Shown in pieces: positions 30,760-42,558 of a stretch of DNA of 44,999 nucleotides. The stretch lies in the NCBI GenBank assembly GCA_014730055.1, contig WJIV01000173.1, positions 1 through 44,999 on the forward strand, written 5' to 3'. Numbering within the stretch: the stretch's first letter is position 1; every line of letters begins with the position of its first letter. The position numbers were made by a program, and so were the translations under genes. The notes under the pieces are model-generated. The model did no database searches and was not told the origin of the DNA. It saw nothing but the letters and a program-made list of their open reading frames with translations. This DNA comes from Candidatus Bathyarchaeota archaeon. Lineage in GTDB: Archaea; Thermoproteota; Bathyarchaeia; TCS64.

Positions 30760-32319
30760 GTGAGAGATTTGAGAATGAACGAAAAAGTAGAGGAACTTAG
30801 AAAGAAAATCAAGGAAGCTATGCTTGGTGGTGGAGAGGAAAGGATAGAGAGACAGCACCAAAGGGGAAAGCTTACCGCTAGAGAGAGAATTGAGATCCTC
30901 CTAGACCGGGGAAGCTTCTCAGAGATTGACCCATTCGTGACACACAGATACAGCGAGTCAGATATGAGTAAGGGACTAGGCGATGGTGTTGTGGTGGGTC
31001 ATGGAACCATCGATAGTAGATTGGTTTTCGTCTACGCCCAGGATTTCACTTTTATGGGTGGCTCCCTCGGTGAGATGCACGCCAAAAAGATATGCAAGGT
31101 TATGGACCTGGCTATGGAGACAGGTGCCCCGATTATCGGATTGAACGACTCCGGGGGCGCTAGGATCCAGGAAGGTGTGGGTGCTTTAGCCGGATATGGC
31201 GAGATTTTCAGGAGAAATGTAATGGCATCAGGCGTAGTACCTCAGATCACAGCTATTATGGGTCCATGTGCAGGGGGTGCTGTTTACTCTCCAGCTCTCA
31301 CTGATTTCATCATAATGGTGCGTGGTACCAGCCAGATGTTCATAACTGGTCCATCTGTGATCGAATCTGTTACGGGTGAGAAGGTTTCAATGAATGAACT
31401 TGGTTCAGCTGAGGTTCATTCTCAGATCAGTGGCGTTGCCAGTTTGGTTGCAGAAAATGATGAAGAGTGCCTTAAATTAATACGTTTACTTCTCAGCTAT
31501 CTTCCTTCTAATAATTTGGAGGACCCCCCAATTCTCGAAGTTGAGGGACAGGAAAACGAGGAGAAAGATCATCTCTTAGAGCTAGTTCCTACAGACCCAA
31601 GGAAGGTTTATGATATCTTAGAAGTGATCAAAACGGTTGTTGATAGGGGTACTTTTTTTGAAATACATCGATATTACGCAACAAACGTTATTGTAGGGTT
31701 GGCGAGACTCCGTGGAAAGACTATTGGTGTTGTTGCTAACCAGCCTGCTAGTTACGCGGGCTGCCTCACAGTGGATGCATCGGATAAGATTGCACGATTT
31801 GTTAGGTTCTGTGATGCCTTCAATATACCGATCGTTACACTTGTTGATGTCCCGGGTTATATGCCGGGTACTGATCAGGAATACGGAGGTATAATACGGC
31901 ATGGTGCTAAAGTCATTTATAGCTATGCTGAGGCAACCGTACCAAAGATTACTGTGGTTCTTCGGAAGGGATACGGTGGAGGATATATCGCTATGTGTAG
32001 TAAACACATTGGAGCTGATCTCGTCTATGGGTGGCCTACTGCTGAGATAGCTGTGATGGGTCCAGAAGGTGCAATCGGTATAATATATAGAAATGAGTTG
32101 AGAGAAGCTGAGAACATAGAAGAAAAAAAGGAAAAACTTGTTGAAGCGTATCGGATAAAATATGCAAATCCTTACGTTGCTGCTTCACTAGGCTACATTG
32201 ATCGGGTTATCGAGCCTCAAGAGACGAGGAAGCTTCTGATAAGCTCTTTAGAGAGACTATCTAAAAAGAGGGCAATAAGCAATAGACCTAGATCGAAGCA
32301 TGGAAATATTCCATTATAG
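30760..32319 (+). CDS. Acyl-CoA carboxyltransferase (methylmalonyl-CoA decarboxylase alpha / propionyl-CoA carboxylase beta type)
   Basis: The enzyme moves carboxyl groups between acyl-CoA and biotin on a carrier protein. The 519-residue protein has both carboxyltransferase halves: LTARERIEILLDRGSF, QDFTFMGGSLGEMHAKKI, NDSGGARIQEGV and GPCAGGAVYSPALTDF in the N half; CDAFNIPIVTLVDVPGYMPG and LRKGYGGGYIAMCSKHIGADLVYGWPTAEIAVMGPEGA in the C half. Together with the beta, carrier and gamma genes downstream it would decarboxylate methylmalonyl-CoA (or malonyl- or glutaconyl-CoA) and pump Na+. Two starts are possible: GTG 30760 and ATG 30775, the latter 10 bases behind GGTGAG. It converges on the beta subunit with a 10-base gap. 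Confidence 0.92.
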   Translation: MRDLRMNEKVEELRKKIKEAMLGGGEERIERQHQRGKLTARERIEILLDRGSFSEIDPFVTHRYSESDMSKGLGDGVVVGHGTIDSRLVFVYAQDFTFMGGSLGEMHAKKICKVMDLAMETGAPIIGLNDSGGARIQEGVGALAGYGEIFRRNVMASGVVPQITAIMGPCAGGAVYSPALTDFIIMVRGTSQMFITGPSVIESVTGEKVSMNELGSAEVHSQISGVASLVAENDEECLKLIRLLLSYLPSNNLEDPPILEVEGQENEEKDHLLELVPTDPRKVYDILEVIKTVVDRGTFFEIHRYYATNVIVGLARLRGKTIGVVANQPASYAGCLTVDASDKIARFVRFCDAFNIPIVTLVDVPGYMPGTDQEYGGIIRHGAKVIYSYAEATVPKITVVLRKGYGGGYIAMCSKHIGADLVYGWPTAEIAVMGPEGAIGIIYRNELREAENIEEKKEKLVEAYRIKYANPYVAASLGYIDRVIEPQETRKLLISSLERLSKKRAISNRPRSKHGNIPL

Positions 32320-32329
32320 CGCCGTAAAA

Positions 32330-33433
32330 TTAGACCAGCAATCTTGGTAATAATGCAAGTATAATGCCTCCTGCTATAATTGACGCTAATTGTCCACCAG
32401 TGTTAACAGCTAGAGCATGAGGCATCAACCAGTTATCCATGTCCTCTTCCCTACCAACTTGGTGAGCTACCCTTGCAGCCATTGGAAACGCGGATATTCC
32501 ACATGAACCGATTATTGGATTAATTTTCCCTCCAGTTACATATGATGCTATTTTTGCCATTAAAATCCCTAACGTGATACTTGATATGAAGGCAAAGAGT
32601 CCAAGCATAAAGATCATTAAGCTCTCATAGTTAAGGAAATCCTCCGAGACAAGTGTGCCCCCTATAGTCAAACCGAGTAAAAGAGTAACAATATTAATAA
32701 GTTCATTCTCGGCTGATCTTGCAAGCCTCTCAACAACTTTACTTTCCTTTAGGAGGTTGCCCAGCATGAGACTGCCAATTAACGGTGTCGCCATTGGTAT
32801 AAGTATGCTTACCAATATGAATACCCCTATTGGAAATAATATTCGAATATAATCTGGATAAGAATGTGGTTGATAATCCATTCTAATAAGTCGCTCCTCT
32901 TTAGTGGTCAACAATTTCAATAGCGGAACTTGAATCACCGGTATAAGAGACATATAAGAATACGCCGCCACGGCTATTGGACCTAAAAGGTGAGGAGCAT
33001 AGATAGCTGAGACAAATATCGCGGTTGGGCCATCCATGGCACCTATAATGCCTATGCTTGATGCCTCGTATGGGGTAAACCCAGCGGTCTGTGCAAGAAA
33101 GACAGCAACGAAGACTCCAAGCTGACCAGCAGTAGCAAATATTACAAGCCATGGACGTTCAAGGAGAGCACCAAAATCGATCATTGCACCCACACCAATG
33201 AATATCAAGGAAGGAAATAGCCCGTTAGATATACCCAAGTCATATATAATTCGAAAAATACCGCCCTCCTCCATCAGAGCTGTTCCGGGAATATTTACCA
33301 TTATCACTCCGAAACCTATTGGAAGAAGCAGAAGAGGTTCATACCTCTTTCTTACAGCCAAATAAATTAGCAGACAGCCTAATCCGATCATGAATAGCTT
33401 CCCTAAGGATATATTGATGGATAATAAGCTCAA
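32330..33433 (-). CDS. Na+-pumping decarboxylase membrane subunit beta (OadB/MmdB family)
   Basis: The 367-residue integral membrane protein couples decarboxylation of carboxybiotin to sodium export. It has about ten hydrophobic helices and the family's conserved GGIFRIIYDLGISNGLFPSLIFIGVGAMIDFGALLE, IIGAMDGPTAIFVS, LTIGGTLVSEDF and GSCGISAFPMAARVAHQVG segments. The second of these contains the Asp in DGPT that is proposed to bind Na+ in OadB. Start and the preceding stop overlap as ATGA (33430-33433) with the biotin carrier gene. The protein confirms that the neighbouring carboxyltransferase belongs to a membrane pump, not merely to a soluble carboxylase. Confidence 0.93.
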   Translation of the reverse strand: MSLLSINISLGKLFMIGLGCLLIYLAVRKRYEPLLLLPIGFGVIMVNIPGTALMEEGGIFRIIYDLGISNGLFPSLIFIGVGAMIDFGALLERPWLVIFATAGQLGVFVAVFLAQTAGFTPYEASSIGIIGAMDGPTAIFVSAIYAPHLLGPIAVAAYSYMSLIPVIQVPLLKLLTTKEERLIRMDYQPHSYPDYIRILFPIGVFILVSILIPMATPLIGSLMLGNLLKESKVVERLARSAENELINIVTLLLGLTIGGTLVSEDFLNYESLMIFMLGLFAFISSITLGILMAKIASYVTGGKINPIIGSCGISAFPMAARVAHQVGREEDMDNWLMPHALAVNTGGQLASIIAGGIILALLPRLLV

Positions 33434-33819
33434 TTTATCACTACCAGAATGTCATCTCTATTTACCCTATCTCCCTTTGAGACTCTTATCTCGTTCACTC
33501 TTCCCTTTACAGGCGAGTGTATCTCGTTTTCCATCTTCATCGCCTCGAGTACGAGCAATGACTCTCCAGTCTCAACTTCTTGTTCCAGTTCAACATCTAT
33601 GGATATTATTACACCAGGAATTGGGGCTCTAACGATTCCTTTCTCAGCAATCAGTTCCTTGGTTGTTTTAGGCTCTTTTCTAGGAATTGGAGGTGCCCTA
33701 CTTGGAGTCTCTATCCCAGACTTGACTTGCTCTGAGGTTACAGCCTGTTCTTTTATTTCCTCTACATTTACAATGAATGTTTTATCGTTGATTGTTATCT
33801 TGAATTTTCTTTGATTCAA
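33430..33819 (-). CDS. Biotin carboxyl carrier protein of the decarboxylase pump
   Basis: The 129-residue protein carries biotin between the carboxyltransferase and the membrane subunit. The C-terminal biotinyl domain has EAMKMEN with the biotinylated Lys95, preceded by IVRAPIPGVIISIDVELEQEVETGE and followed by SPVKGRVNEIRVSKGDRVN. The N-terminal 35 residues form a short beta region; a Pro-rich linker (about 38-50) connects them. Both its neighbours are close: the gamma-like gene ends 4 bases upstream and the beta gene overlaps by 4 bases. Biotin ligase is encoded nearby at 34247. Confidence 0.95.
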   Translation of the reverse strand: MNQRKFKITINDKTFIVNVEEIKEQAVTSEQVKSGIETPSRAPPIPRKEPKTTKELIAEKGIVRAPIPGVIISIDVELEQEVETGESLLVLEAMKMENEIHSPVKGRVNEIRVSKGDRVNRDDILVVIN

Positions 33820-33823
33820 TATT

Positions 33824-34132
33824 TCAGTCCCTCATACGACGGTTAATTTCTTCTATTCTGCCTGTCTGACTCCATCTCGATGCGGGAACTTCATGCTCTA
33901 TTCGCCGATTCGGCTCAGCTTCAGTTTCCATATATATTGTCACTGCTGCTGTTATCGCGGCGACCACTTCATCTGAGAGTAGTGATTTCTCAATTTGATC
34001 ATCTTTTGTTGGAATACTTCTCATCAGAACTCTCTTCAATGTCTCGGTGTACAAAATAATAAGTGATAGAATTACGAATATTGAGATAGCTCCGTATAGC
34101 GCTAAATTGAGACTGAAGTCAATGGAAGTCAT
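33824..34132 (-). CDS. Small membrane subunit, OadG/gamma-like
   Basis: The 102-residue protein has one N-terminal transmembrane helix (LYGAISIFVILSLIILYTETL, residues about 12-32) and a cytoplasmic tail with the helix DEVVAAITAAVTIYME, then a basic end (RRIEHEVPASRWSQTGRIEEINRRMRD). This layout matches the gamma subunit of sodium-pumping decarboxylases, which holds the complex together. The sequence is very divergent in this family, so the call rests mainly on position just ahead of the biotin carrier (4-base gap) and on topology. It begins at ATG 34132. Confidence 0.75.
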   Translation of the reverse strand: MTSIDFSLNLALYGAISIFVILSLIILYTETLKRVLMRSIPTKDDQIEKSLLSDEVVAAITAAVTIYMETEAEPNRRIEHEVPASRWSQTGRIEEINRRMRD

Positions 34133-34246
34133 AGCATTTTAAGTATATACTATTTATACGCTAATATGTTTGTCCTATAAATCAGTCCACGTATGAATTC
34201 TAATATATTGAATTACCTAGATCTGTAAATAGACAAGAGAACGGTA

Positions 34247-34987
34247 ATGATGGATGAACTCATATGGAAGATTTCTCATCTTGACGAATTGTCATCAACG
34301 AATGACATTGCCAAGGAGCTTGCTTCTGATGGATGCGATGAGGGCACCGTGGTAATAGCTGGAATCCAGACATCAGGTAGAGGCCGGTTATCGAGACGAT
34401 GGATTTCCCCTAAGGGAGGATTATGGTTCTCAATTATTCTGAGACCTCAGATGCTGCCAGAGGAGTCCAATCTACTTAATGTTCTTGCTTCTGTGTCTAT
34501 ATGTAAGGTAATAAGAAATAAATTCAATTTAAATACGGTAATAAAATGGCCAAACGATATTCTGATCGAGGAAAAGAAGGTTTGCGGGATACTTATTGAG
34601 AATTCTGTGACATCAGGACAAATTGAATACTCAGTTATAGGAATCGGAATAAATACAAACATCGACAATTCATATTTTTCTGAAGAACTTAATGCAACTT
34701 CTCTCAATTCGGAGGTAAATCGCGAAATCAACAATGAAAATTTACTGAAGCATATTCTATCAGAGATCAAGCTAAGCTATGATAATTTAAGACGTGGTGA
34801 AATTACTTCTTTGCTTAATGAATGGGTAGAAATGAACTGTTTAATTGGAAAAATGGTCAAAGCTTATGATGAGAGTAGAGTTATTGTTGGAAAAGCCATT
34901 GATGTTGATGACAGTGGCAACTTGATTGTGAATACGAAGAATGGAGATATACATAAGATTTCATCGGCTAGCATAAAAATAGTTTAG
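34247..34987 (+). CDS. birA: Biotin-protein ligase
   Basis: The enzyme joins biotin to a specific Lys in the carrier protein via biotinyl-5'-AMP. The 246-residue protein has the core catalytic motifs: SSTNDIAKELA, IQTSGRGRLSRRWISPKGGLWFSIIL (GRGRxxRxW), KWPNDILIEEKKVCGILIE and IGIGINTN. A C-terminal SH3-like domain is present (LIGKMVKAY...). No N-terminal helix-turn-helix is present, so it is not a repressor. It is divergent from the gamma/BCCP/beta run and its substrate is surely the nearby Lys95 of the carrier. A 110-base intergenic region separates the two. Confidence 0.95.
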   Translation: MMDELIWKISHLDELSSTNDIAKELASDGCDEGTVVIAGIQTSGRGRLSRRWISPKGGLWFSIILRPQMLPEESNLLNVLASVSICKVIRNKFNLNTVIKWPNDILIEEKKVCGILIENSVTSGQIEYSVIGIGINTNIDNSYFSEELNATSLNSEVNREINNENLLKHILSEIKLSYDNLRRGEITSLLNEWVEMNCLIGKMVKAYDESRVIVGKAIDVDDSGNLIVNTKNGDIHKISSASIKIV

Positions 34988-34994
34988 AAAATAG

Positions 34995-36011
34995 TTATCC
35001 CAGTACTTCCTTGAAGACTCTGAGATGATTTCCTCCAAGTATCTTGAAGATATCTTCATCACTATAATCTCTTTTCACGAGTACTCGTGTTAGATTAGGT
35101 AGTTTAGATACCTCCTCAATCCCTTTAGGGGCTTCCCTTATACCGTCATAGTCACTGCCTAGTCCGACATAGTCAGGCCCAACTAGTTCGACAATATGAT
35201 CTATATGATCAACAAGGTCATCTACAGTAACTGTATCTGTATCCTTTTTAACGAATCCAGTAGCGAAGTTCATTCCTAGAACGCCTCCATGATCTGCCAC
35301 AGCCTTTATCATATCGTCCGTAAGATTCCTCGGATGATCACAGATATTACGACTATTGCTATGGCTGGCGATAAATGGCCCATTCATTACATCATTTACG
35401 TCCCAGAAGACACTATCGGCAAGATGACTAACGTCGAAGATTATACCTAATTTCTCCATCTCCTCTAAAGCCTGAACCCCGAGCTCCGGTAGCTTACTCT
35501 CTGCTCTCTTTGCTCCTAAACCATCTGCAAAAGGCGTCCTGTAATTCCAGGCAAAACTCAGCATTCTCATACCAAGTCTGTAAAACACCCTTAGAGCGGC
35601 CAGATCTCCCATCAAGGGTTCAGCACCTTCCATGCTTAACAATCCGCATACTTTCCCGCTGTTTTTGGCCTCAATTATCTCACTCTGATTGATTACAGGA
35701 ACTATCTCAGGATTTTCTTCTATCATTGAGTAGAACTTGTCAACCATCTGCATTGCCACGAGGGGTGCTTCAGGTACGAATGCTCTTCTACCAGTATAAA
35801 TTGCAAAAGTCTGGCAGGTTACTCCCCCTTCAATCATTCTAGGGAGATCAATATGCCCCCGGTCACTTCTATTTCCTAATATTCTAGCCTCAGGCATCCC
35901 CCATGGTTGAGGCAATAATTGCATTAAAGTATCGCAGTGTGTATCAACAATAATAGCTTGCTCGTGTAGTCTCTTGGCTCTTCTCTCCTGAGAGTCGCTT
36001 AATTCTATCAT
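34995..36011 (-). CDS. M19 (renal dipeptidase family) metallodipeptidase
   Basis: The 338-residue TIM-barrel enzyme hydrolyses dipeptides, including some with D-residues, using a two-zinc site. Visible ligands and motifs are His25 and Asp27 in VDTHCDT, Glu in LSMEGAEP, FDVSHLADSVFWDV (His), SHSNSRNICDHPRNLTDD (His) and LGSDYDG (Asp). No signal peptide is present, so it is cytoplasmic. Length is typical for bacterial and archaeal members. It converges on the biotin ligase with a 7-base gap. A role in recycling peptides is likely; the exact substrate is unknown. Confidence 0.92.
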   Translation of the reverse strand: MIELSDSQERRAKRLHEQAIIVDTHCDTLMQLLPQPWGMPEARILGNRSDRGHIDLPRMIEGGVTCQTFAIYTGRRAFVPEAPLVAMQMVDKFYSMIEENPEIVPVINQSEIIEAKNSGKVCGLLSMEGAEPLMGDLAALRVFYRLGMRMLSFAWNYRTPFADGLGAKRAESKLPELGVQALEEMEKLGIIFDVSHLADSVFWDVNDVMNGPFIASHSNSRNICDHPRNLTDDMIKAVADHGGVLGMNFATGFVKKDTDTVTVDDLVDHIDHIVELVGPDYVGLGSDYDGIREAPKGIEEVSKLPNLTRVLVKRDYSDEDIFKILGGNHLRVFKEVLG

Positions 36012-36239: not shown

Positions 36240-38300
36240 ATGCTTATTCGTGAGGTAATACTTGAGAATTTCATGTCTTACGACTACGCTAGGGTGCCCC
36301 TTAAACAAGGGGTCAATGTAGTCTGTGGGCCAAATGGCTCCGGTAAATCCAGTTTGCTCCTCGGAATATGCGTTGCACTAGGTGATACATATACAGAACG
36401 CAGTAAGAAGTTGAGCGATCTCATTCGTTGGGACGCCGAACAGGCGAGGGTAACACTGATTCTTAATAACAGCTTAAACCAGACTGGGTACCGGCCCGTA
36501 CCACAGTTCAATATGGACGAGATAACCCTCACCCGTAACTTAAGAAGGGACGGAAAATACGGTTTCCAATTAAACCAGCGCGGGGTAACCAAAGCTGAGG
36601 TTGTAGACATACTCAAACGATTCGGTTTTGACCCGAATAATATGTTAATCATAATGCACCAGGCAATGCCTTCACGTTTCGCGAACATTAATCCCCAGGA
36701 CAGACTAGAGATCCTGGAAGAGGCGGTGGGTTTTGACAGCTTCAGAAAAGACGTTATTGAGGCAAAGGAAAAGCTAAGCGGAGTTCTAAGTGAGGAGGAG
36801 AGTCTTAATCAGCTCCTAGAACAAGCCCGGGAAACCTTGAATTACTGGAGAGAACAGAATGAGAGACTTCAGGAAAAGAAGCAGCTTGAGACAAGGATGA
36901 CCTTCCTTCAGAGAGAGATGGCTTGGAGCAGAGTAATGTCCCTTGAGGAAGATGTGACCAAGCTGGAGAGGGAGTTACAAGAGGCAGAACACGACCTTTT
37001 CAGGGCTCAGGAGGAGATGGAGCAGAACACAAAGCTCGTTGTTGACTCCGAGGACTCCCTTAGAAAGCTTAGGGTACTCGTAAATGATCTGATAGAGAAG
37101 AGAATAGATTTTGAGAGAAGAGCAGGTATTAGTGAGCACACCATAAACATGTCAAAGGACAGGTTGACAGAGGTTGAGAAGGTTCTTGATGTCCAGAGAG
37201 TTCAGAGAAGACGTTTTGAGGAAACATATCTTACATTGAAGAAAAGGCTAGAGGACGGCCCTACCACCCTTGATGACTATTTTGGATTATTTGAACAGCT
37301 TGAAGAAACTCAGGTAGAGACTTATCAAACCTTAACTCAGGAGTTCGTGGAGCAAAGGGAAGGATTACAATCAAAGATCAATTCGTTCACTCGACAGCTT
37401 ACAGAGGCAGAAGGGGAAGCAAGCAGGCTCGTGGAGGAGATGGAGGCTGCTAGGGCAAAGCTGGACTCAATAAATGATCAGTATATTGACAGCAGGATTA
37501 GATTAGCACTTCTAAACGATCGTAGAGATCGGTTGAAGCGAAGGATAGAAAACATAAAGGCAGATAGGGATAGAACAAACAGAGACCTGAAGGAAGCTGA
37601 GGCCGAGGCTCTAATTAAAGGGCAGAGGATTGAGACCGGGCGTACACAGGATGAGATATTGAACGAGATCCGCAAGACAAGCGGCATGCTGGCGAGTATG
37701 AGCGATGTTCCAGATGAAGCAGAGGAGATGTACGAGAACTATAACAGGACATTCAAGGAGATTCAGGAGAGAATAGAGCAGGTTAGGGAGAATCGCAGGA
37801 GAGTCCTTGAGGAGATAGAGGAGCGGAAGAAGAAGTGGCGAGAAGTTACGGAGGAGCTTCTGGATGAAGTTAATATGAGGTATAAGAGACTACTCTCAAA
37901 ACTTCAAGCTTCAGGGGAGGTCCGCCTAATAAATCCGCATGATATTGAAGATGCGGGACTCGAAATCTTCGTTGGCTTTAAGGGAGCCGCACCTCAGCGA
38001 TTAGATCCTTACACCCACAGCGGAGGAGAGAGGAGCAGCAGCGTAATGGCTTTCCTACTAGCACTACAGCAGAACGTGTTATCACCGTTTAGAGCTGTAG
38101 ACGAGTTCGACCTTCACATGGACCCCAAGAATAAGGAGGCCGTCAGCGAGTTCATAGTTGAGACGATGGAGGGAACGGATGGACAATATATGGCTATCAC
38201 ACCGAGCCAAGTCACCTTCCAAGAGCAAGATGTGCATATTATAATGGTTCATAAGACGGAGAATGTATCAGAAGCTCGACTCGTGGAGGGAGATGAATGA
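36240..38300 (+). CDS. Short-armed SMC-family ATPase, Smc5-like head
   Basis: The 686-residue protein has SMC/ABC head motifs at both ends. Walker A is GPNGSGKSS at residues 30-38, the Q-loop is HQAMPSRFANI (Gln141), the signature is SGGERSS from residue 594 and Walker B is FRAVDEFDLHMD with Asp621-Glu622. FRAVDE and RILEILEEAVG-type wording resemble Smc5 heads (CPFRVVDEIN) more than canonical Smc. Between about 170 and 540 it is coiled coil. It is far shorter than Smc (about 1,150) and no globular hinge is obvious; a break near residues 335-375 (GPTTLDDYFG) may be the turn. It probably binds DNA as an ATP-driven dimer. The next gene overlaps its stop (ATGA). Confidence 0.85.
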   Translation: MLIREVILENFMSYDYARVPLKQGVNVVCGPNGSGKSSLLLGICVALGDTYTERSKKLSDLIRWDAEQARVTLILNNSLNQTGYRPVPQFNMDEITLTRNLRRDGKYGFQLNQRGVTKAEVVDILKRFGFDPNNMLIIMHQAMPSRFANINPQDRLEILEEAVGFDSFRKDVIEAKEKLSGVLSEEESLNQLLEQARETLNYWREQNERLQEKKQLETRMTFLQREMAWSRVMSLEEDVTKLERELQEAEHDLFRAQEEMEQNTKLVVDSEDSLRKLRVLVNDLIEKRIDFERRAGISEHTINMSKDRLTEVEKVLDVQRVQRRRFEETYLTLKKRLEDGPTTLDDYFGLFEQLEETQVETYQTLTQEFVEQREGLQSKINSFTRQLTEAEGEASRLVEEMEAARAKLDSINDQYIDSRIRLALLNDRRDRLKRRIENIKADRDRTNRDLKEAEAEALIKGQRIETGRTQDEILNEIRKTSGMLASMSDVPDEAEEMYENYNRTFKEIQERIEQVRENRRRVLEEIEERKKKWREVTEELLDEVNMRYKRLLSKLQASGEVRLINPHDIEDAGLEIFVGFKGAAPQRLDPYTHSGGERSSSVMAFLLALQQNVLSPFRAVDEFDLHMDPKNKEAVSEFIVETMEGTDGQYMAITPSQVTFQEQDVHIIMVHKTENVSEARLVEGDE

Positions 38301-39073
38301 GCAGCGAGCTAGAGAGCGTAATTAGCCTTTGCCGTATGGTCCAAAATGGAAAGATTGAGCCCTTTGACGTTGATTTCGACTATATAATGAGCGTTATCAA
38401 GAAACATTATCCAGAGATCAAAGATGTACGCGAATTCTGTCTAGATGCCCAGGCACTCAAGGAGGTATCCACGGTCCTTGAGAACCAGAACAAATGGATA
38501 GCTCATCAGTCCACTACATTATACAAGGACCCTTTCATGCTCAACCAACAGCTAATGAACATGGATATTGGCAGCCTCGCAGATGCCTTCCTCAAGTCAT
38601 GGCACCCAATAATCGAGATGGAACAGATGAGTAGTAAGACATTAACAAATAGCCTCGGTTACTGGGGAGACCTAATTCCGCTAGATGAACGGTGGCAAGA
38701 GCCAGAAGTTGAAGCAAAGGACACAATGTATGCTACACGAAATGAGGTTCATGAACTTGGTTTTATACCTGAAGAGGGATTCGGTGAGATAATCGAGAAA
38801 TTCTGGAGAGAACTTGGCGATAGGGCTGGTGAGGGTGGAACGATCGACTACTGGGAATGGATTGGTAGAGATACTTACGAGGAAACTGTATATCGGGCCT
38901 ACGTGACTGTGTTTTTGGTAAGTTATGGATACGCAAATATTGACAGAAAACCCCTCCTTGAGGAGACAACGATAACCCACCTTGAGGAACCAAGGCCTAA
39001 CCCTGAACAAAGCAAAGTCAGTGTACCTGTACTGGTAGATTACGAGGAGTGGAAATATTGGCTAAAAGAATGA
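38297..39073 (+). CDS. Kleisin-like (ScpA-type) partner of the short SMC
   Basis: The 258-residue protein starts ELESVISLCRMVQNGKIEPFDVDFDYIMSVIKKHYP. This resembles the N-terminal kleisin motif of ScpA (LLxLIxxGKIDPWDxDIxxIxxxYL), which clamps the neck of an SMC. The middle is helical and acidic; the C-terminal end (VSVPVLVDYEEWKYWLKE) could contain the winged helix that would bind the cap of the other SMC head, though I do not see it clearly. Kleisins close SMC rings. Start ATG overlaps the SMC stop (ATGA) and its own stop overlaps the next start, so three subunits are coupled. No other family suggests itself, but the match is from recall, not alignment. Confidence 0.6.
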   Translation: MSSELESVISLCRMVQNGKIEPFDVDFDYIMSVIKKHYPEIKDVREFCLDAQALKEVSTVLENQNKWIAHQSTTLYKDPFMLNQQLMNMDIGSLADAFLKSWHPIIEMEQMSSKTLTNSLGYWGDLIPLDERWQEPEVEAKDTMYATRNEVHELGFIPEEGFGEIIEKFWRELGDRAGEGGTIDYWEWIGRDTYEETVYRAYVTVFLVSYGYANIDRKPLLEETTITHLEEPRPNPEQSKVSVPVLVDYEEWKYWLKE

Positions 39074-39630
39074 AAACCTACTCAACAAAGATAAAGAACG
39101 CAGTTCATCTGCTCTTCTTCCAGCATCACAGACTACCTGGAGTAAGGGGGTGGGAACTAAGAAAAGAGCTAGGTAACGACTGGCAGAATGTAATAGAGGT
39201 ATTAGACAAGCAGCTTCAGCCACTGGACCTCAAAGTGACCCGGGTATTCGACGAACCCAACATAATCGATCCGACAAATGCACAGTTATCAGATGCAAGA
39301 TACTACATAACAATGCGTGGTACCGTGGATCAGAAAGCAGCTAAATCCATTGGATGGAGAATAGACGATATAGCAGGATTGGCTGTTTCTGTTGCATATA
39401 TAATCTCAAAACAGGGAAAGGCACCCCGAAGAGAAATTGAAAAGATACTTGCTGAGAAACTTCCTGGATGGCGTGCAAAGCTCAACCTAGACAAATATAT
39501 TCAGGAGGGTTATCTTGGTGAGGATGATCAGGGGATCGTTTATCTTGATTGGAGGTCCCGTGCAGAAATTGACCAGAAAAAGTTAGTTGATCTGGTAGTC
39601 TCCTTTGGGAGAAAACAGTTAGAGGCCTAA
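39070..39630 (+). CDS. Winged-helix KITE-like third subunit of the SMC operon
   Basis: The 186-residue soluble protein looks like two winged helices: residues about 1-90 (RLPGVRGWELRKELGNDWQNVIEVLDKQLQPLDLKVTRVF, then ARYYITMRG) and about 95-180 (AGLAVSVAYIISKQGKAPRREIEKILAEKLPGWRAKLNLDKYIQEGYL...). Tandem winged-helix proteins that bind kleisins (KITE: ScpB, MukE, Nse1/Nse3) have this size and layout, with a hydrophobic wing strand such as YYITMRG. ATG 39070 gives an ATGA overlap with the kleisin-like stop; the earlier GTG 39049 is less likely. The order SMC-kleisin-KITE is the same as in condensin-type loci. Function is inferred from context. Confidence 0.55.
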   Translation: MKTYSTKIKNAVHLLFFQHHRLPGVRGWELRKELGNDWQNVIEVLDKQLQPLDLKVTRVFDEPNIIDPTNAQLSDARYYITMRGTVDQKAAKSIGWRIDDIAGLAVSVAYIISKQGKAPRREIEKILAEKLPGWRAKLNLDKYIQEGYLGEDDQGIVYLDWRSRAEIDQKKLVDLVVSFGRKQLEA

Positions 39631-39968
39631 GCATCCTCCATCTCGCTTAATTCTTGTAAAGGAAGCCCAATTTTTAACAACAGTCCGTCTATTAATAACT
39701 CCTCTTCAATATCTAGAAAATACTCTTCAAGTTTCACAGAGGGGATTTTAACCTCCTCGTAATCATGTAAACTGAGGACTATCTTGGCCTTCTCAGCATT
39801 CAACTGTAGGATATCCTCAACAACAGCAACCCTCGGTGAAATCCTCCATGCGGATTCGGCTTCGAACAGGTTTAGGTCCCTAGGAAAAGCATGAAGATCT
39901 AATAATGGATCCAGCCCAGTCGTGAAGATGTAAAGATTTCCGTTCTCAAATGAATAATACTTACCCAA
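39627..39968 (-). CDS. Unrecognised 113-aa acidic protein co-transcribed with the GT2 gene
   Basis: I do not recognise this family. It is soluble, acidic and rich in Leu and Glu. The middle half has alternating strands (RVAVVEDILQL, KIVLSLHDYEEVKIPSVKLEEYFLDIE). There is no signal peptide or membrane segment. Its start overlaps the stop of the glycosyltransferase by 8 bases (39961-39968), so it is probably translated from the same transcript and may partner with or regulate it. Its stop overlaps the KITE-like stop on the opposite strand. Coding status is supported by the overlap and amino acid composition only. Confidence 0.6.
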   Translation of the reverse strand: MGKYYSFENGNLYIFTTGLDPLLDLHAFPRDLNLFEAESAWRISPRVAVVEDILQLNAEKAKIVLSLHDYEEVKIPSVKLEEYFLDIEEELLIDGLLLKIGLPLQELSEMEDA

Positions 39969-41532
39969 TTTTTCTTACTCCTAGAAAGATAATTAGAAGA
40001 TCAATCAGCCCAGTCCCGAGAAACCTGATTATGTGGATTAAGGCATCTGTAAAGGGAAGGGATACAAGTATGAAACAGGTCAAGATTAGTATTGTCCTTG
40101 TAGGAAAGAACATTCCAAGCTCCGGACCATTTGTCACTCTATGCAGTTTATCCCCCTTTAATCGTCTTAACCAGTTCACAAATAACCTGAATTTTATTGT
40201 GAGTACATTATCAGTTATGTGACCGGTCTTAAGTGTCCTGATCCAGTTGCCTTCTTCTTTCTCGAGCAGCCCTTTCAAGGCAGCGTATGCTTGGTATGGC
40301 GTGACGAAGTAGCTGATTGCTATAAAGCTGAAGATTCCTGAATAATCCTCTCGCAGGTCTCCTTCTAGAAAAAGCCCCGCTAAACCCATCAGGGGAATTG
40401 CCAGAAAGTTACTAACGATCAGCCCCCACCCTAGCATGGGTGTCCAGAAAGAGGGCCTCTGCCTGTATATCTCAGATATAATGAAGCTTGTAGTACCTAT
40501 CATGAAGAATAAAGACTGCAGATAGTAAGGTGTAAAATAGAGAAACTCAAGTTTCTCGGAAACCGTTAACATGGGCGATTTTATTACCCTCCAGAAATAA
40601 CGTTTAACCGCATATGTGTGGCCTTCTGCCCATCTCATTCTCTGGCGTGCGAGTCTCGAAAGTGTGGTCGGTATCTCAGCTGGTGCCTGTATTAGAGGGG
40701 TATAAGCTACCCTATATCCCTCCAGGTATAGCCTCAATGTCAGCTCCCAGTCCTCAGTAATGCTTGTAGTCCATCCAAGTGTTCTAAGCACCTCGTTTCT
40801 GAGCATAAACACACTGCCGCTTATCATCTTCAAGGCTCCGAAGTACTCCTCTGCTACTCTCTCTATCATGTAGCTACCACTGAATTCTGCTCTAACACCT
40901 CGTGTGACCCAGTTCTCAGTCTTGTTTAGATAATGAAGCTGGTATCCCTGAACCGCAGCCACTGGTTTACCTTTGTTCTCTACCTTTTTGAAGTGGTTAA
41001 GGAAATCATGTATTATTGTCCTTGGAGGCACGAAGTCTGCGTCGAAAACCATAACGAACTTGCTCCTTGGATGCATATACTTCTGGGCGGCTTGCAGCGC
41101 TCCTCCCTTGAACCCTGTCCGATCCTTCCTGTGTACGAATTTTATTATTGGTTTTGTAGTTCTCCATTCGCTTTCTTTCATAATCTGTATGGTTTCGTCT
41201 CTCGAGTCATCAGCGACAAGAATTTCATAATTTGGGTAATCTATGTCCATGCAAGCCCGGATGATTCTCCTAGCTACGTTTGTCTCATTGAAAAATGGCA
41301 GATGTATCGAGATAAAGGGCTCAAGAAGTAATGAACCTAACTCAGAGTTGTTTTCATCCGATTGCTCAGGTAGTGAAGGGGATAAAATATCCGAGTTCCT
41401 TGTGAGGACAATTAAAGAGATTATTGTACTAACATAGTATTTGAGGGCAAAAACGAAGTAGAAACCTCCGAAGACCAGAGCGATATAAGATGCCAATAGG
41501 CCGATAGAGATTATCAGTTCTTCTTCATCCAC
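39961..41532 (-). CDS. Processive GT2 glycosyltransferase (cellulose-synthase-like), membrane bound
   Basis: The 523-residue protein has two or more N-terminal hydrophobic segments (ISIGLLASYIALVFGGFYFVFALKYYVSTIISLIVLT), the GT-A catalytic domain in the cytoplasm and several C-terminal helices (about 350-520). GT2 motifs are intact: LVADDSRDET, FDADFVPPRT (DxD), ITEDWELTLRLYLEG (the TED-like catalytic base) and RQRMRW, the QxxRW motif of processive synthases. It would extend and extrude a polysaccharide or transfer sugars to lipid carriers. The sugar is unknown. The N-terminal and C-terminal membrane segments match CESA/BcsA-like organisation. The 113-residue protein overlaps its end. Confidence 0.9.
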   Translation of the reverse strand: MDEEELIISIGLLASYIALVFGGFYFVFALKYYVSTIISLIVLTRNSDILSPSLPEQSDENNSELGSLLLEPFISIHLPFFNETNVARRIIRACMDIDYPNYEILVADDSRDETIQIMKESEWRTTKPIIKFVHRKDRTGFKGGALQAAQKYMHPRSKFVMVFDADFVPPRTIIHDFLNHFKKVENKGKPVAAVQGYQLHYLNKTENWVTRGVRAEFSGSYMIERVAEEYFGALKMISGSVFMLRNEVLRTLGWTTSITEDWELTLRLYLEGYRVAYTPLIQAPAEIPTTLSRLARQRMRWAEGHTYAVKRYFWRVIKSPMLTVSEKLEFLYFTPYYLQSLFFMIGTTSFIISEIYRQRPSFWTPMLGWGLIVSNFLAIPLMGLAGLFLEGDLREDYSGIFSFIAISYFVTPYQAYAALKGLLEKEEGNWIRTLKTGHITDNVLTIKFRLFVNWLRRLKGDKLHRVTNGPELGMFFPTRTILILTCFILVSLPFTDALIHIIRFLGTGLIDLLIIFLGVRKIG

Positions 41533-41591: not shown

Positions 41592-41691
41592 TATCTGAAA
41601 GTTAGTCTTCATGTATTAAGATAATATTTGGCTTGGTATACATATTTATTCTAGTGTTATGAATACCATGTCAACGTGGTGCACCCACTAT

Positions 41692-42558
41692 ATGTCCGCT
41701 GAAGAGAATAAGCTAGACAACTTAGAAGAGGAAGCAGCAGAACTTCGGGATACCCGTAATGAGTTATTCGCCAAGATAGGGAAGTTCCGAGACCAGAGAG
41801 ACAGCCTAAATGAGTCAGCAAGTAAGCTAAGAGAAGAAGCACTCAAGCATAAAGAAGAGAGGGATAGACTAAACTCCAGGATACAGGAGATTAAGAAGAG
41901 CTTAGGCCCACTATTTGAGGAGCTGGATGAGACTCGCCAGAAGCTAAGTAAGACAGATCAGGCACTCCGAAATGAATACAGATCACGCCCAAACAAGACT
42001 CAGGTGCAGAAGGACCTGCAAGAGACCGAATGGGAGATCATGACAACTCCTACAAGAGAGATACTAGACAGGGAAGAGCAGTTGATAACTAGAGCCGCGA
42101 AGCTTAGGAAGACCCTAGAGGGTTTCACGAGCCTTGAGAAGCAACAGGTAAAAAAGATGGATATAATGGCTGATAAAAAGGCGACCGAGAACGAGATAAC
42201 ATCGATGAGGGAAGAGATCCAGAAGCTTGCGGAGCGTAGCCAGGAACACCATGAGAAGATGATTATGTTCTTCGAGAAGGCGGACGAAGAGAAGGAGAAG
42301 GCGGATGAGACCCATCGACGCTATGTTGACACGATCCAAGAGGTCGAGAAGGTCAAGGATGAGATCAGCATGATTATGCCTCAGATAAACGCCCTAAGAA
42401 ACGGTATCAAGGTTAAGGACATGAAAGCTCAAGAGAGGCGGAGGATGAGCGTACAAGAGCGAAAGGAGCAGATGCGTCAGGAAGCTCTTAGGAAGATGGA
42501 GAGTGGCGAGAAACTCACCTTCGAGGATATGAAACTCATCTACGGAGAAGAAGAATAG
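41692..42558 (+). CDS. Archaeal coiled-coil protein (COG1340-like)
   Basis: The 288-residue protein is almost entirely charged coiled coil from residue about 1 to 230: repeated EExAxExRDTRNEL heptads, RDQRDSLNESASKLREEA, DRLNSRIQEIKKSLG and so on, ending in EKLTFEDMKLIYGEEE. This matches the archaeal COG1340 coiled-coil family by size and composition. Proteins of this type are abundant in archaea and their role is not known; some are annotated as phosphoserine phosphatase by error. I prefer ATG 41692 (MSAEENKLD) because a TATA-like element at 41636-41648 would start the transcript downstream of the earlier ATG at 41659. Confidence 0.7.
   Translation: MSAEENKLDNLEEEAAELRDTRNELFAKIGKFRDQRDSLNESASKLREEALKHKEERDRLNSRIQEIKKSLGPLFEELDETRQKLSKTDQALRNEYRSRPNKTQVQKDLQETEWEIMTTPTREILDREEQLITRAAKLRKTLEGFTSLEKQQVKKMDIMADKKATENEITSMREEIQKLAERSQEHHEKMIMFFEKADEEKEKADETHRRYVDTIQEVEKVKDEISMIMPQINALRNGIKVKDMKAQERRRMSVQERKEQMRQEALRKMESGEKLTFEDMKLIYGEEE

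Follow-up and report, generated by a model that had tools for sequence, protein, structure and literature searches.

A compact archaeal SMC operon with candidate kleisin and KITE partners and a probable relationship to Smc5/6

Three overlapping genes encode a compact SMC protein and two small candidate partners

The DNA analysed here (hereafter, the window) is a 44,999-nucleotide (nt) stretch of contig WJIV01000173.1 from the Candidatus Bathyarchaeota archaeon assembly GCA_014730055.1 (positions 1 to 44,999, forward strand). It contains three overlapping open reading frames (ORFs) on the plus strand: 36240-38300 (686 amino acids, aa), 38297-39073 (258 aa) and 39070-39630 (186 aa). The first encodes a compact SMC-type ATPase that is assigned to the SMC5/6 clade by a match to Pfam SMC_N, profile comparison with PDB sequences and a phylogenetic tree; the second, a putative Nse4-type kleisin, according to profile searches and matches to Pfam Nse4_C; and the third, a predicted KITE protein with tandem winged helices, according to its homologues and a structural model. 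All features of these genes described below lie on the plus strand.

The tetranucleotide ATGA is present at both junctions, at 38297-38300 between the SMC and kleisin genes and at 39070-39073 between the kleisin and KITE genes. Many homologues of the 186-aa protein start with 'MAKR...' about four codons upstream of that ATG, a position that corresponds to TTG 39058 in the window, and the KITE gene therefore probably starts at this TTG rather than at the ATG of the ATGA, yielding a 190-aa product (39058-39630) and a second overlap of 16 nt rather than 4 nt. An original prediction, made from the sequence of this DNA, described an operon in which an SMC gene and two small genes are joined by two ATGA overlaps; the ORFs, the SMC motifs and both tetranucleotides bear out the coupling, and only the second junction is probably longer than proposed. 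The flanking genes, at 34995-36011 upstream and at 39627-39968 and 39961-41532 downstream, are on the minus strand, so the operon consists of just these three genes.

The ATPase head groups with SMC5 and SMC6

The 686-aa protein is about half the length of a canonical SMC, and Pfam SMC_N spans aa 3-676 (E 2.3e-34). As identified from the sequence and alignments of homologues, Walker A is GPNGSGKS (aa 30-37; 36327-36350), with G30, P31, N32, G33, G35, K36 and S37 invariant in 36 sequences; the ATP-binding cassette (ABC) signature SGGE (aa 594-597; 38019-38030) is invariant in the same set; and Walker B with the D-loop is RAVDEFDLHMD (aa 618-628; 38091-38123), in which the Walker B residues proper are DEFD (aa 621-624). 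The latter motif resembles its counterparts in SMC5 (FRVVDE...MD) and SMC6 (ALDEFDVFMD). With Walker A at the N-terminus, the signature and Walker B at the C-terminus and an antiparallel coiled coil between them, the protein has the arrangement of the SMC family.

Profile searches against PDB sequences distinguish the compact SMC from the canonical one. For the profile of 36 homologues, the ten best sequences are all SMC5 or SMC6 (186-236 bits), and the best canonical Smc scores 179 bits; the pattern is reversed for a profile built from nine canonical SMCs of archaea in the same phylum, which scores three Smc heads at 452-549 bits, full-length SMC1-4 chains at 232-368 bits and the nine SMC5/6 chains among the matches listed at 80-92 bits. 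We take the PDB chains 7ylm, 8i4v, 7qcd and 7tve to be from budding yeast and 9lwi to be human.

A maximum likelihood tree of the heads was built from 350 columns under LG+F+R4 for 40 sequences, namely 21 compact SMCs, 8 canonical ones, 6 Rad50-like proteins as the outgroup and 5 PDB chains; the C-lobe is missing from the sequences of SMC2, SMC3, L103 and L104, and the N-lobe from that of L107. The compact SMCs group with SMC5 and SMC6 at 97.4/99 (Shimodaira-Hasegawa approximate likelihood ratio test/ultrafast bootstrap, SH-aLRT/UFBoot). Two alternative topologies were rejected by the approximately unbiased (AU) test under LG+F+G4, the one joining SMC5/6 with the canonical SMCs at p 0.0017 and the one joining the compact with the canonical SMCs at p 0.0057. 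Within the tree, SMC6 adjoins the compact group (88.2/94) with SMC5 outside, an order that involves two long eukaryotic branches and from which, for that reason, we draw no conclusion. The head thus does not belong to an unrelated ABC family and falls with SMC5 and SMC6, away from both canonical SMC and Rad50.

Yoshinaga and Inagaki (2021) reportedly described 'SMC5/6-related' SMCs in archaea, which cluster with SMC5 and SMC6. The compact SMC clade is probably the same as this group, whose placement with SMC5 and SMC6 is also given, with reference to that work, in a later paper (PMC9389158). The words 'kleisin', 'operon' and 'ScpA' do not occur in the text of the later paper, and partner proteins seem not to be treated there.

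A short coiled coil with no recognizable hinge

An AlphaFold2 model of the SMC protein (36-row alignment; mean predicted local distance difference test score, pLDDT, 85.2) consists of the head and a single hairpin, with an outgoing helix (aa 166-335; 36735-37244), a tip formed by a 12-residue loop with pLDDT of about 51-53 at the usual site of the hinge (aa 336-347; 37245-37280), and a returning coiled coil (aa 348-554; 37281-37901). The latter is modelled as helices at aa 348-460 and 494-554 separated by a broken stretch, with the breaks at aa 461-469 and 487-493. We estimate the arms, of approximately 170-207 residues, at 25-30 nm, compared with about 47 nm reported for a bacterial Smc (PMC5344682). 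Many distant homologues have an even shorter coil, and the tip region of the alignment consists mostly of gaps in them.

The hinge family PF06470 is missing from the 16 families listed for the window SMC and from the 25 families listed, of 102, for 19 homologues. Because PF06470, which detects most canonical SMCs, missed 32 with divergent hinges, its failure to match is by itself weak evidence of hinge absence; together with the model, these results indicate that the compact SMC appears to lack a hinge domain. A CxxC zinc hook is not found in the window SMC either, the only cysteines being at aa 29 and 44. Actinobacterial SMC variants with neither hinge nor zinc hook have been described (PMC12153180). 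They resemble the compact SMC in both respects and differ from it in belonging to bacteria, in a clade close to actinobacterial SMC; the paper nowhere uses the word kleisin.

The small proteins resemble Nse4-type kleisins and Nse1/Nse3-type KITE proteins

A Pfam search with the 258-aa window protein alone gave no significant match. Profiles of 15, 23 and 36 sequences all retrieve Nse4 as the top PDB hit, with E values of 0.02, 4.7e-4 and 1.6e-5, respectively. The second hit of the 36-sequence profile is EID3 (6.4e-4), which we take to be an Nse4 paralogue, and weak hits at 0.09-0.19 comprise two ScpA chains and 4i99_C, a chain that is named uncharacterised and comes from a PDB entry of an SMC head with a ScpA winged helix; kleisin chains make up the top 7 of the 9 PDB hits of this profile. 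By region, the C-terminal domain (38723-39013) accounts for the Nse4 match (1.6e-5) and weakly resembles ScpA C-terminal winged helices (0.11 and 0.19), and the N-terminal region (38300-38488) shows a weak similarity to the ScpA N-terminus (0.092) that is not significant alone.

Pfam Nse4_C (PF08743) matches 20 of the 36 family members (best E 5.6e-9). A blind whole-genome search with this family matched 10 of 40 genomes that carry the operon, 3 of these exceeding the Pfam cut-off; 20 genomes lacking the operon and 14 controls gave no match. All ten matches fall on the kleisin gene, eight by their coordinates and two (G009 and G011) by arithmetic from loci L026 and L031. A protein search with a distant kleisin as the query returned only two relatives, both with a precomputed PF08743 assignment. 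The comparisons support the identification of the 258-aa protein as a kleisin of the Nse4 type.

The AlphaFold2 model of the 186-aa protein (pLDDT 83.6) adopts a tandem winged-helix KITE fold, and at E<=0.001 Foldseek returns four hits, each of them a chain of Nse1/MAGE-G1 or of Nse1-Nse3-Nse4. Among 36 members of the family, Pfam MAGE matched 10 and SMC_Nse1 also 10; KITE profiles compared with PDB sequences gave no related chain. The 186-aa protein contains no cysteine and lacks the RING-like domain of Nse1. The model thus supports a tandem winged-helix KITE protein of the Nse1/Nse3 type. The kleisin and KITE identities that the original prediction had proposed for the two small proteins are both upheld, the former by profile and Pfam matches at the sequence level and the latter by the modelled fold and its best structural hits.

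The three genes are linked and co-occur

Searches returned 216 clusters of relatives for the 258-aa protein and 1,885 for the 186-aa protein; among the best 120 clusters for each, those named by organism are mostly from Bathyarchaeota or Bathyarchaeia. Within these sets of 120, identity is 74-98% for KITE versus 56-94% for the kleisin. With far more clusters as well, KITE is much better conserved than its kleisin, which is unexpected in a pair of partners.

A KITE scan of titled genome contigs yielded 43 loci, ranging from Bathyarchaeota records to Terraquivivens and Calditenuaceae. The order SMC, 258-aa gene, 186-aa gene on one strand is found in 40 of these; for the remaining three, the start of the record or locus is at most 183 bases from the first gene seen. 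The SMC frame is short or broken in L010, L015 and L017. The same order is kept in 17 of the 20 more distant loci L078-L097, chosen from lower-scoring genomes of the same phylum; two of the exceptions have the SMC gene on the opposite strand at a distance of about 2 kb, and in the third (genome G034) a compact SMC, recognized by eye, is on a different contig.

The presence of the genes was surveyed by profile searches of 398 sampled genomes of one phylum (presumably Thermoproteota in GTDB, with Caldarchaeales also among the groups sampled). The 186-aa profile matches 157 genomes and the 258-aa profile also 157, with both present in 155 genomes and either in 159, so that the operon is present in about 40% of the sample. 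The linkage of the three genes is not due to chance; the genomes are related and the 155 co-occurrences are therefore not independent events, yet the two small genes clearly travel together. Of the 157 positive genomes, 155 are matched once by the KITE profile, and G079 and G337 are matched twice. A kleisin search of viral contigs found none.

These patterns bear on two rival explanations. One is that the large protein is a repair ATPase of the Rad50, ASRP or RecN kind that happens to have two unrelated neighbours, as its short length and partial matches of the Rad50 type could suggest. We consider this scarcely tenable: the zinc hook is missing, the head tree argues otherwise, the NCBIfam ASRP model scores far under its cut-off (68.3 of 300 bits), and neighbours found together in 155 of 159 genomes with either, one a likely kleisin and the other a likely KITE protein, do not look unrelated.

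The other explanation is a defence system against plasmids or viruses. MukBEF, MksBEF and Wadjet JetABCD combine SMC, kleisin and KITE genes in a triplet, to which MksBEF and Wadjet defence add a nuclease. The archaeal operon has the same triplet, and its SMC matches defence ATPases, as is expected of any such head. As points of difference, the archaeal kleisin and KITE match no PADLOC family, and the commonest clusters of neighbouring genes include no fourth family that recurs within the operon. For the JetD nuclease, there is no fourth plus-strand gene in the window operon and no recurrent candidate in the related operons, although no genome-wide JetD search was made. A defence function is accordingly rated very unlikely.

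Coexistence with canonical SMC and genomic setting

Canonical archaeal Smc (about 1,130-1,320 aa, normally with a hinge) forms a clade separate from the compact SMC; the two systems share an SMC head and a kleisin partner and often reside in the same genomes. Among the 155 genomes with both small genes, 75 encode a canonical SMC with a recognizable hinge and 32 more encode one with a divergent hinge, the latter identified by matches of at least 190 bits to the canonical profile, with at most 8 candidates per genome scored. Both systems are thus found in 107 of 155 genomes, which agrees with the original prediction of a canonical SMC as a separate system, and no canonical SMC was detected in 48, part of which may be gaps given that no completeness values are at hand for the sampled genomes. 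An earlier count of 80 of 155 genomes without canonical SMC, based on the absence of PF06470, was rejected because 32 of the 80 match the canonical profile; G015 and G016, for example, contain SMC frames of 1,156-1,167 aa despite lacking PF06470. A ScpA-like ORF is adjacent to the canonical SMC gene in 6 of 10 loci (by eye), and one of these is confirmed by Pfam SMC_ScpA (2.1e-6). In archaea, the canonical complex reportedly seems to lack the KITE protein ScpB (PMC7055376).

SMCs of canonical size (about 1,130-1,175 aa) that escape PF06470 are encoded in G012, G014-G017, G019, G020 and other genomes, and hinge-based surveys of archaeal SMC will therefore undercount them. In the canonical SMC of G034 (L107:1158-5072, minus strand), Walker A is interrupted, as read by eye, by about 165 residues that resemble an intein (GSGK|C...VHN|SN).

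The coexistence data are pertinent to a third explanation, namely that the operon encodes a second condensin that folds or segregates the whole chromosome in the manner of Smc-ScpAB and replaces the canonical complex where that is missing. Neither the hinge family nor the profile finds a canonical SMC in the 48 genomes mentioned, and the KITE gene is almost always single, both of which are compatible with such a role; however, most of the genomes retain a canonical SMC, often beside a ScpA-like ORF, and the compact protein has an SMC5/6-type head, short arms and no predicted hinge. We regard a condensin role as unlikely, albeit less so than the two preceding explanations.

Of the 54 loci with sufficient room, 24 have a gene for an Lhr-type helicase, convergent with the operon, no more than 6 kb downstream of the KITE gene; in 15, it lies within 100 bp. 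By group, it is found in all 12 loci of L032-L043, in 10 of the 20 of L078-L097 and in 2 of the 22 of L001-L031. The protein is a superfamily 2 (SF2) helicase of about 945 aa with the DEAD, Helicase_C, WH_Lhr and DEAD_assoc domains in the two examples tested. Its gene follows closely on the 3' side of the KITE gene in L031-L043 and in several loci of L078-L093, is rare in the Bathyarchaeia group and does not adjoin the window operon. Lhr has been linked with repair, and its adjacency weakly suggests a connection of the operon with DNA repair or replication.

A probable minimal Smc5/6-type complex

Sequence or model shows the three protein families, an SMC head of the SMC5/6 type and no recognizable hinge, as well as the conserved linkage of the genes and their co-occurrence; we interpret the operon as encoding a complete minimal Smc5/6-type complex made of an SMC, an Nse4-like kleisin and an Nse1/Nse3-like KITE protein, and assign this identity and relationship a probability of roughly 0.8. 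With the eukaryotic Smc5/6-Nse4-Nse1/Nse3 core, the archaeal proteins share the SMC5/6-type head, the Nse4-type C-terminal domain of the kleisin, a KITE fold nearest to Nse1/Nse3 chains, and KITE rather than HEAT-repeat partners. They differ in that the operon has one SMC gene and one KITE gene where eukaryotes have two different ones of each, in the lack of RING and a predicted hinge, and in their much shorter arms. Several results weigh against this interpretation: a search with the single SMC sequence ranks canonical Smc 5xei first (1.1e-31) and SMC5 next (3.4e-30); in the Foldseek search with the SMC model, the two top hits are Smc5/6 chains (1.2e-24 and 2.9e-24), with an archaeal Smc head almost tied (4.4e-24); and a whole-genome search with SMC_Nse1 gave one hit, which is not the KITE gene.

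The lineage of the operon is probably an archaeal sister of Smc5/6 that predates the duplications giving rise to Smc5 and Smc6 and to Nse1 and Nse3. The original prediction of a second, smaller SMC system, possibly related to the ancestor of Smc5/6, was right in its main point, given the head tree and the kleisin and KITE matches. The stronger proposition, that the operon represents a living pre-duplication Smc5/6 with a homodimeric hinge-less SMC, one Nse4-like kleisin and a KITE protein resembling the ancestor of Nse1 and Nse3, is only slightly favoured.

By analogy with known complexes, the SMC would presumably form a homodimer, and each kleisin would presumably carry two copies of KITE, in the manner of ScpB or Nse1-Nse3. 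The kleisin would bridge the two heads, its N-terminal region at the neck and its C-terminal winged helix at the cap, with the KITE pair seated on its middle part. In cryo-electron microscopy (cryo-EM), Smc5/6 subunits form a clamp around duplex DNA (PMC9191643), and by this analogy ATP might join the heads so that, together with the kleisin and KITE, they form a closed clamp on the duplex. Short arms of about 170-207 residues and the lack of a hinge would make the holding of DNA segments likelier than long-range loop extrusion, and the complex would be expected to act near forks, joints or sites of repair as a short DNA clamp or tether. A function in repair or in the maintenance of chromosomes, as a DNA clamp driven by ATP, is offered tentatively, at somewhat less than even odds.

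The most surprising aspect is the combination, in an archaeal operon, of all kinds of Smc5/6 core parts as single genes with no detectable hinge. Smc5/6 retains KITE partners, whereas cohesin and condensin have HEAT-repeat partners, and a three-gene archaeal relative supports an old, separate Smc5/6 branch. The status of Smc5-6 as a separate, KITE-keeping branch was left open in 2017 (PMC5228436). If the stronger, pre-duplication proposition holds, this branch and its KITE proteins predate eukaryotes, and a machine of SMC, kleisin and KITE needs no hinge to function as a DNA clamp on the head side. With one SMC, one kleisin and one KITE protein, the complex would be a minimal system for biochemistry, and the hinge-less version would allow a direct test of the need for a hinge and long arms in clamping, entrapment and loop extrusion.

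As to a possible earlier description under another name, which the original prediction had left open, the SMC clade has already been published as 'SMC5/6-related', and among the matches listed no title or beginning of an abstract concerns a Smc5/6 complex of archaea that includes kleisin and KITE. A 2024 preprint by van Hooff and colleagues may already describe the archaeal partners, so the novelty of the three-part complex is uncertain.

Neighbouring genes

Immediately downstream of the operon on the minus strand, the window encodes a 113-aa protein without a Pfam match (39627-39968) and a family 2 glycosyltransferase (39961-41532), each of which has relatives in 13 loci of the Bathyarchaeia group. 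Farther downstream on the plus strand, 41659-42558 encodes a 299-aa coiled-coil protein matching DUF7121 (5.3e-11), with relatives in 5 loci of that group. A protein of about 235 aa is encoded near the operon in several groups; the copy at L012:3049-3762 (minus strand) has no Pfam or NCBIfam match, and similar ORFs are found in 12 more loci. Upstream of the operon, genes of the acyl-CoA carboxylase type occupy 30760-34987 of the window, including a carboxyltransferase (30760-32319), a biotin-carrier-like ORF recognized by eye (33430-33819) and a biotin protein ligase (34247-34987).

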